From: Oceanipulchritudo coccoides
GTDB lineage: Bacteria > Verrucomicrobiota > Verrucomicrobiia > Opitutales > Oceanipulchritudinaceae
Direction: 5' to 3'
Length of the DNA stretch: 64,000 bases
Assembly: GCF_010500615.1 (NCBI RefSeq)
Contig: NZ_JAAGNX010000003.1
Location: 744,001 to 808,000 of the forward strand
Shown: positions 19,103 through 21,351 of the stretch, one piece after another
Layout: each line of letters opens with the position of its first letter
How positions within the stretch are numbered: position 1 is the stretch's first letter
The notes under the pieces: model-generated
Seen by the model: only the letters and a program-made list of their open reading frames with translations
What the model was told of the DNA's origin: nothing
Database searches by the model: none
Made by a program: the position numbers and the translations under genes

Positions 19103-20617
19103 ATGAACCTGACTGAACAACTGGAGAACCCTGCATTCCGCGCCTTGTTTGAGCATACGCGGGAGGCCGTTATTGTTGCCCGCGCGGGTTCCCTGAAAAT
19201 CCTGGAGGCAAATCCCAGCGCCCGCAAACTTCTGGAGTACAGCCGGGAGGAGCTGGAAGATATGCCCGTCACCCGGTTGACCAGAAAGCAGAACAAAGAC
19301 CGCATCCAGGAGTTCATTTCCAGCGTCGGCACAGGCTCCGTTCAGCATTCACTGACCATACAACTGCAGAACAAGTCCGACGAGCCCATCCCCTGCGAGG
19401 TCAACCTCCAGCCATTGCCCTTGAAAGGGGAAACCCTTCTCCTGTTCACCTTCCAGGATATTTCCGAAAGGCTCCGGGCGATGGAGGATATTGAGCTCCG
19501 CAACATCGCCATCGCCAACGTGACTTCAGGTGTGACGATTGCCGATGCGCGCCAACCCGACCTGCCCCTCATTTATGTCAACCAGGGTTTCCAGAAGATC
19601 ACTGGATATTCGGCGCGGGAGGCAGTTGGTCGCAGTTGTCGGTTTCTTCAGGGTGAAGATCGTGACCAGCCGGGACTGATCGAACTTCGCCGGGCTCTTC
19701 GCGAAGGCCAGCCCTGCATTGTCCAGTTGCGCAACTACAAGAAGAGCGGTGACCTCTTTTACAACGAACTCCACATTTCCCCCGTGAATAATGAAGAGGG
19801 TGACTTGACCCACTTTGTGGGTATCCAACTGGACGTGACCGAGGAGGTGAAAGCGCGGGAAACCCTTGAAAGGAGTGAAAAACGAGTCCGTAAAGCTCTC
19901 GAAAGGGAACGCGAGCTGAATGACATCAAGACCCGCTTTATCTCCATGGTCAGCCACGAGTTCCGGACCCCGATGACCGGAATCCAAGCCTCTTCTGCCC
20001 TGCTCAGGAGATTCGGGGAAAAACTGGCACCCGAAAAAAAGGAGCGCCACCTGACCAATATTGAGATCTCCCTGAAAAGGATGAACCGCCTTCTAGATGA
20101 CGTGCTGTTCTTCAGCCGGGCGGAGGCACACAAGATCCCAGTGAAGCGCAGTGATATCCGCTTGAATGCCTACTTTCAGCGCCTGATCGAAAATCTCGGC
20201 TCAATTTATCCGAACCGGAAAATTCGTTTTGAATCAACCCTCGAGGACAACGAATCATTCCTTCTCGATGAGCACCTTCTGGATCATATTTTCCACAACC
20301 TTATCGGGAACGCCCTGAAGTACTCGGAAGTGGGTAACCCTGTCCGCTGTTCAGCATCCCGCAAGCCAGAGGGGGTCGAAATAATTGTCCGGGATACAGG
20401 GATCGGCATTCCCGAAGCCGACCAGAAGAAACTATTCGAGGCCTTTCACCGGGCGGATAATGTCGGCAACCGTCAAGGAACCGGACTCGGGCTGAATATT
20501 GCTCTCCGAGCAATTGAGCTGCTTGATGGGTCCATTGAATTTCAATCCAAACAGGACGAAGGCTCAACATTCCTTGTCTTGCTTCCTGAAAAAAATACCA
20601 AAGAGGAAAACCAATGA
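19103..20617 (+). CDS. LOV-domain sensor histidine kinase (PAS-LOV-HisKA-HATPase)
   Basis: This is a soluble 504-residue kinase with no membrane segment. Residues 12-125 form a PAS domain and residues 132-248 a second PAS that reads as a LOV photosensor. It has GRSCRFLQG with Cys179, the position that forms the flavin adduct in light, then Asn211 (LRNYKKSG), Asn221 (LFYNELHI) and Gln242 (FVGIQLDVT), the FMN contacts of LOV domains. A linker coiled coil leads to HisKA with His285 (MVSHEFRTP) and a HATPase with N, DTGIGIP and GTGLGLN boxes. The ATG at 19103 is preferred over TTG at 19022, which adds a basic leader. Its TGA overlaps the next ATG. Light sensing is inferred; the motif retention is directly visible. 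Confidence 0.88.
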
Positions 20618-21351
20618 GTAAAATCCTGATTCTAGAAGATGATGAAACAGTGCGCTTGCCACTGATCGACCTGCTCGAGGCCGAGAATTACACCGTGGTC
20701 TCCGCACCTGACGGAAAACAGGGCATCGAAATGGCCAAAAAGGAAAAACCGGATTTGATCGTCTCCGATATCATGATGCCGGAGATCGATGGCCATGGTG
20801 TCTTTGAAGCCCTCCAAAAGGATCCGATCACAGCGGTTATCCCGTTTATCTTTCTTACCGCCAAAACCGATCCTTCGGACATTCGCGAGGGCTTGGGCCT
20901 GGGGGCCGATGACTACATCACAAAGCCTTTTGAACAGGAGGATCTACTCGATTCCATACAGACGCGCCTGAACAAGTATCAGCTCATTTCCGAGGCCGCG
21001 CTCAAGGCCGATGACAATCCGGAATATGACCAGATATTCATCAAGGACGGGGAAAGCTGCTGGTTTGTCGAATATGAGAAAATCCGGCTTCTTGAATCGG
21101 AGGACAATTATGTGCGGGTATTCTTCGACAAGGAAAAACCACTGATCAGCCGGACCCTCAATTACCTCGAGGAGAAACTACCCGCGAAGCTCTTCTTCCG
21201 AGCCAACCGAAAGCAGATTATCAACCTCCGATGGATCCGCAATATCCAGCCATGGTTCAACGGCGGTCTTCTTGTCACCCTCAAGGATGACAACAAAATC
21301 CAGATGTCCCGTCGGGCGGCCCAGTCCTTCAAGTCCATCATGGGCATCTAG
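20614..21351 (+). CDS. Response regulator with LytTR DNA-binding domain
   Basis: A receiver domain fills residues 1-125: EDD at 8-10, phospho-acceptor Asp in IVSDIMMPEIDG, Thr in FLTAK, Lys in ITKPF. A C-terminal LytTR domain follows (about 150-245), with YEKIRLLESEDNYVRVFF, the FRANRKQIINLRWI block and RRAAQSFKSIMG. LytTR regulators bind direct repeats upstream of target promoters. The start codon overlaps the stop of the LOV kinase gene as ATGA, so the two are translationally coupled and form a cognate pair. The pairing of a LOV kinase with a LytTR output is notable. Targets are unknown. Confidence 0.93.
   Translation: MSKILILEDDETVRLPLIDLLEAENYTVVSAPDGKQGIEMAKKEKPDLIVSDIMMPEIDGHGVFEALQKDPITAVIPFIFLTAKTDPSDIREGLGLGADDYITKPFEQEDLLDSIQTRLNKYQLISEAALKADDNPEYDQIFIKDGESCWFVEYEKIRLLESEDNYVRVFFDKEKPLISRTLNYLEEKLPAKLFFRANRKQIINLRWIRNIQPWFNGGLLVTLKDDNKIQMSRRAAQSFKSIMGI

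Follow-up and report, generated by a model that had tools for sequence, protein, structure and literature searches.

The window, which is the whole stretch of 64,000 nucleotides analysed here, carries a two-gene unit in which a histidine kinase gene and a response regulator gene share a 4-nt ATGA overlap, in agreement with the original prediction (Table 1). The kinase combines an N-terminal PAS domain and a LOV domain with HisKA and HATPase_c modules, and the regulator joins a receiver to a LytTR DNA-binding domain. The glutamate dehydrogenase gene (17636-18989, minus strand) and the kinase gene point away from each other, their starts lying 113 bp apart, and this arrangement is conserved in the genus only. 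Further downstream, the cluster at 23558-29332 resembles genes for a multi-subunit Mrp-type Na+/H+ antiporter, which fits a saline habitat. An operon encoding a FAD-dependent oxidoreductase, a DUF1365 protein and a fatty-acid methyltransferase, typical of light-response operons, sits 8 kb downstream of the pair. We also considered reading the function of the pair from its neighbours; since their conservation does not extend beyond the genus, we did not count glutamate dehydrogenase, MscS or riboflavin synthase among its partners.

Table 1. Features of the LOV-LytTR locus and of the oxidase operon (window coordinates)
Feature	Position	Strand	Evidence and remarks
LOV sensor histidine kinase gene	19103..20617	+	504 aa; PAS-LOV-HisKA-HATPase; Pfam, NCBIfam, phmmer vs PDB, residue check
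N-terminal PAS domain, aa 12-120	19136..19462	+	Pfam; poorly conserved, missing from two orthologues
LOV domain, aa 133-252, with Cys179, Asn211, Asn221, Gln242	19499..19858	+	profiles, phmmer, alignment, AlphaFold2
LOV-to-His285 linker	19859..19957	+	DxT motif to phospho-His, 41 residues in the window kinase
HisKA domain, phospho-acceptor His285	19928..20128	+	Pfam 276-342; residue check
HATPase_c domain	20267..20593	+	Pfam 389-497
REC-LytTR response regulator gene	20614..21351	+	245 aa; Pfam
REC domain (Asp52), HisKA-partner lineage	20623..20958	+	Pfam, identities, tree
LytTR DNA-binding domain, AlgR-type lineage	21061..21342	+	Pfam, identities, tree
Predicted operator ACCGTTCA-N12-TGGGTTTA	29343..29370	+	93 bp before oxidase start; second half degenerate in this species
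FAD-dependent amine-oxidase-like oxidoreductase, predicted target	29436..30713	+	Pfam Amino_oxidase E 2e-29; co-occurrence
DUF1365 protein, predicted target, same operon as oxidase	30694..31506	+	Pfam DUF1365 E 3e-73
CFA/UfaM-type fatty-acid methyltransferase, predicted target, oxidase operon	31430..32773	+	Pfam CMAS E 2e-90

The second PAS domain of the kinase, placed by Pfam at residues 152-247, had been proposed to be a LOV domain, and profiles, PDB matches and fold all agree with this. In NCBIfam, the YtvA model matches residues 136-264 with its LOV region (149 bits), and a blue-light histidine kinase model matches residues 128-264, both matches falling under the whole-protein cut-offs, the remainder of the kinase being different from those models. 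With phmmer, the top matches of the kinase in the PDB are LOV proteins (E 1e-42 to 1e-35). The AlphaFold2 model of the domain, built with 15 sequences, reaches a pLDDT of 85, and the best 50 fold matches listed from the PDB are all LOV-domain structures (TM (query) 0.72-0.91). The GxxCRFLQ reactive-cysteine motif is found as GRSCRFLQG around Cys179, which is invariant in the 11 kinases of the family, while the flavin contacts Asn211, Asn221 and Gln242, present as claimed, are invariant in all 15 aligned sequences. Taken together, the NCBIfam models, the PDB matches, the cysteine and flavin contacts and the fold assign the domain to the true LOV class far beyond chance, and an assignment to a non-LOV PAS class does not hold. 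FMN binding and a light-driven photocycle are predicted from these residues. The HisKA and HATPase modules are intact, as had been noted, with the phospho-acceptor histidine and the N (399), G1 (431) and G2 (459) boxes in place. No transmembrane segment was apparent in the kinase when its sequence was read by eye, and no second strong LOV match was found in the genome. In most LOV domains of the family, a Ser replaces the usual Asn before the reactive cysteine (GRSCRFLQ), and this position may tune the speed of the photocycle.

Of the 17 genomes in the Opitutales family to which the window belongs, 11 carry an orthologue of the regulator (73-82% identity), that of the window included, and the next relatives are at most 44% identical over the full length. 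Relatives that bear names are metagenome-assembled Opitutales/Verrucomicrobia, including GSL.Bin15 and one genome from a CSSed sample. Each regulator orthologue for which we read through the upstream DNA directly follows a LOV kinase. The kinase of G015 is divided between contigs. In G007 the kinase frame is broken and the regulator contains one TGA (L128); these frameshifts and stops in both genes are probably draft-assembly faults. The pair was not found outside this family among 387 sampled Verrucomicrobiota genomes. The open-access literature searched yielded no LytTR domain together with a LOV domain and a histidine kinase, nor together with blue light and a photoreceptor. As first supposed, the LOV-to-LytTR pairing is unusual. 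No described blue-light regulator in Verrucomicrobiota was found in the literature searched either.

The sensory part of these kinases is variable. According to assignments made by eye and alignment, the window kinase and L120 are PAS-LOV-HK, five orthologues (L119, L121, L124, L126 and L127) are PAS-LOV-PAS-HK and two (L122 and L123) are LOV-HK. Identity to the window proteins among orthologues is 76-91% for LytTR, 70-82% for REC, 56-79% for HisKA and 57-81% for LOV, and falls to 23-40% for the N-terminal PAS. Between the window and L120, dN is 0.15 for LOV versus 0.80 for the N-terminal PAS. In all 11 kinases, the phospho-His lies either 34 or 41 residues after the last DxT motif, two lengths that differ by exactly one heptad, and this spacing is kept even where a PAS is the last sensor domain. 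Since the LOV domain and its cysteine remain constant while the other sensor domains vary, the sequences identify LOV as the input domain of the kinases. One might object that the domain is degenerate, still folding and no longer controlling the kinase, and the Ser found beside the cysteine in most orthologues could be read in that sense. We consider this very improbable: LOV is under strong purifying selection, with a dN/dS of about 0.07 between the two species compared, and all flavin contacts as well as the heptad register are kept.

The regulator displays the two Pfam domains Response_reg (E 3e-28) and LytTR (E 1.6e-23), with Asp9, Asp10, Asp52, Thr82 and Lys104 of the receiver all present. 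Its output domain (PF04397, 83-85 bits) belongs to the sole LytTR gene of the genome. Identities of the two domains point to different lineages. For the receiver, identity is 50-61% with receivers that in Flavobacteriaceae and cyanobacteria neighbour a PAS- or LOV-HisKA kinase and are joined there to a CRP, EAL or different output, and at most 30% with receivers of verrucomicrobial AlgR-type regulators. The LytTR domain, on the other hand, reaches 58% identity with the LytTR domain of these same AlgR-type regulators, whose partners are LytS-type kinases at the loci read. The kinase partner of the present regulator is not of LytS type, being a HisKA protein with PAS/LOV (Pfam). Both trees agree with this division: the receiver falls on the HisKA-partner side (support 100/99) and not in the AlgR/LytR lineage, and the LytTR domain groups with the AlgR type (support 95/88), with little resolution inside the group. 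A structure model of the regulator, with a pLDDT of 59, was too poor for use. Identities and trees thus indicate that the regulator arose by a domain swap in which a HisKA-partner receiver became fused to a LytTR domain of AlgR type. Phosphotransfer from the kinase to this receiver is predicted from the conserved adjacency of the two genes.

The oxidase gene follows the distribution of the system. It is present in 10 of the 11 family genomes that bear the pair, G003 lacking the operon, and in none of the six that lack it (Fisher p 0.0006, phylogeny ignored). None of 10 control genes repeats this pattern exactly; MscS and the gene at 22291 come close, with 11/11 versus about 2/6. A conserved block at -93 to -99 is found in 8 of the 10 aligned oxidase upstream regions, no site being found in those of G007 and G009. 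Within the block, a period of 20 stands out with 38/64 matches, the mean over periods 9-44 being 16.4 (s.d. 5.4); when each genus is represented by a single species, period 20 gives 22/32 matches, against 14 for the next best period. A leave-one-genus-out test confined to the oxidase promoters gives weak results (p 0.016-0.71), and over the 17 genomes the literal oxidase-site pattern is barely above control, oxidase promoters excepted.

The original prediction had proposed a search for paired LytTR direct repeats in upstream regions. Among the selected promoters that we scored, a conserved LytTR-like direct repeat, NCCGYTYR with a period of 20-21 bp, is indeed found at matching distances before the oxidase, photolyase-like and fasciclin genes. 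For the photolyase-like genes (FAD_binding_7, about 460 aa), the matrix was built from oxidase sites alone. The best match within 200 bp on both strands lies on the plus strand at -75 to -83 in 9/9 genes of 5 genera, and Fisher combination of the shuffle results, each genus represented by one species, yields p 9e-6. In the own genome of the window, this site has a degenerate half. In genus g4, the gene following the regulator encodes a secreted-looking fasciclin protein, preceded by ACCGCTCA-N13-ACCGCTAA in one species and by ACCGTTTA-N13-ACCGCTAA in the other; both sites beat 1000/1000 shuffles with a matrix made without this genus. With the final matrix, two fasciclin sites of the own genome that were outside the training set score 20.5 (p 0.0003) and 12.9 (p 0.005). 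The strongest predicted operator seen in this genome, ACCGCCCA-N12-ACCGTTTA, lies at -132 before a two-domain fasciclin gene (L140, G000:C2, about 1090560-1091408). Of 180 background upstream regions, 3 score at least 16, and two of these belong to the fasciclins used in training.

Sites outside the training set also precede the CPD photolyase genes of both g4 species, at -97 and -98 (p 0.0013 and 0.0003). No photolyase-like match was found in this genus, where the site thus seems to have shifted to the other photolyase. A general role of CPD photolyase as target was rejected, a consistent site being found in g4 only. An earlier motif, ACCGYTHA-N13-ACCGYTHA, was also abandoned: its exact matches were confined to the two fasciclin promoters from which it came, and, being circular, it gave way to a matrix whose training set was a different gene. 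Autoregulation was not retained either, no LytTR-like repeat being common to the regions upstream of the kinase genes, the divergent region shared with glutamate dehydrogenase included; L120 and a few others show isolated moderate matches before the kinase at unrelated positions.

To whom do these repeats belong? The pair could truly sense light while the repeats are sites of another regulator or core promoter elements, in which case the link to photoprotection would be wrong. The sites are predicted ones from selected promoters, and the weak leave-one-genus-out result of the oxidase set leaves some room for this reading, which we nevertheless hold to be unlikely. Sites of MerR regulators are palindromes and those of PhoB are 11-bp repeats, and the present repeats resemble neither. 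They are pairs of 9-nt direct repeats spaced by two helical turns, which fits the geometry described for LytTR operators, where two repeats of 9-11 nt have 11-13 nt in between (PMC4847170). Moreover, the scored CPD photolyases of genomes lacking the system are without a site (scores 3-8.5). A LitR/CarH control was also considered and no candidate was found in the own genome, whose only B12-binding_2 (PF02607) match lies in a 1253-aa frame, whose length is compatible with MetH. Given the LytTR-like layout, the single LytTR gene and the lack of a LitR/CarH candidate, the LOV-paired regulator appears as the natural owner of the predicted sites.

We thus think it likely that this LOV-to-LytTR two-component system, with its chimeric REC/LytTR regulator, controls a photoprotection regulon. 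Blue light would lead FMN in the LOV domain to form an adduct with Cys179, and the resulting change would pass through the coiled-coil linker of fixed heptad register to the HisKA/HATPase part, altering the net phosphorylation of Asp52 in the regulator. The LytTR domain would then bind the paired NCCGYTYR repeats; this binding, like the light response itself, is a prediction. Members of the regulon would be the operon for FAD oxidoreductase, DUF1365 protein and CFA-type methyltransferase, either a photolyase-like gene or that of the CPD photolyase, and genes for secreted fasciclin proteins.

The original prediction had left the choice between a light- and a redox-controlled switch, and it is the predicted targets that favour light. 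LOV proteins can sense redox, and the domain could read the flavin redox state or oxygen instead of light, the pair then serving redox adaptation. Cysteine-less LOV receptors are also described that can signal by flavin photoreduction (PMC4682037). Yet a sensor of redox only would not need the adduct cysteine that all 11 family kinases have kept, and the predicted targets include photolyase and photolyase-like genes, which are useful only with light. Redox sensing, although less favoured, keeps a small share of probability in our assessment, and control by light is preferred.

The properties of this light-responsive pair, as we propose it, echo those of several known systems. Like Caulobacter LovK, to which it had been compared, and Brucella LOV-HK, the window kinase is a LOV kinase with an adduct cysteine, and structures of Brucella LOV-HK match the fold of its LOV domain. 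The comparison stops at the kinase type: LovK and LOV-HK are HWE/HisKA2-type kinases tied to the general stress response, whereas the window kinase is HisKA (Pfam) and has a LytTR transcription factor as partner. Alphaproteobacterial GSR kinases are described as HWE/HisKA2 (PMC12148442). The engineered YF1/FixJ system, in which the YtvA LOV domain is placed on the FixL kinase, has the same order of LOV, coiled coil, HisKA and DNA-binding regulator, and YF1 aligns with the window kinase over the LOV and kinase parts; the window system, in contrast, is natural. In YF1 linkers, the heptad register sets signal polarity (PMC6798134). The register of the window kinase differs from that of YF1 by +5 residues (modulo 7), so an assignment of light polarity from linker length was dropped. 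On the output side, AlgZ/AlgR, BtsS/BtsR and YpdA/YpdB share the AlgR-lineage LytTR output and tandem-repeat operators, the latter predicted in the genome of the window. LytS/LytTR systems differ by their LytS-type kinases, where the window has PAS/LOV-HisKA and a receiver of another lineage.

The predicted regulon is itself familiar. In Pseudomonas, phrB, a FAD oxidoreductase gene, ufaM and cryB are induced by light through short LOV proteins and LitR (PMC9758184), and the gene set of PmSB-LOV/PmlR2, a short LOV protein with a class II LitR, resembles the one predicted here. There, LOV binds the MerR-family repressor directly, whereas in the window the route would be phosphotransfer to LytTR. 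In Vibrio cholerae, the induction of photolyase/cryptochrome operons and of a CFA synthase by blue light runs via MerR and ChrR (PMC5241685). We lean, with somewhat less assurance than for the regulon itself, to the view that a LOV-to-LytTR phosphorelay made by domain swap took over a regulon that elsewhere is under LitR/CarH or ECF-ChrR. If true, the same photoprotective gene set would have been put under a different light circuit, a case of convergent rewiring. The locus would offer, in Verrucomicrobiota, a LOV histidine kinase for which both the output regulator and the likely targets are readable from the genome, as well as an example of a response regulator built by domain exchange. Optogenetics may also profit from this natural LOV-HisKA-LytTR cassette and its predicted operator.

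Two further observations concern relatives of the pair. In Bacterium BMS3Abin01 (L100, 4352-6729), a HAMP-HisKA-like kinase has a REC-LytTR regulator as neighbour. The receiver of that regulator again belongs to the HisKA-partner type, which makes it a second, independent case of such joining; the principle is therefore not unique, and its LOV version was found only in the family of the window. Flavobacterial LOV/PAS-HisKA and REC-CRP pairs (L047, L057, L079 and L089) have receivers and kinase cores closely related to those of the window and carry a LOV-like domain, but their output is of CRP/FNR type and not LytTR. In one of them, from Pelagihabitans pacificus (L057, 4493-4870), a Leu occupies the place of the adduct cysteine (GHNLRFLQG), the flavin contacts being retained, and this LOV-type domain is possibly a natural cysteine-less LOV.
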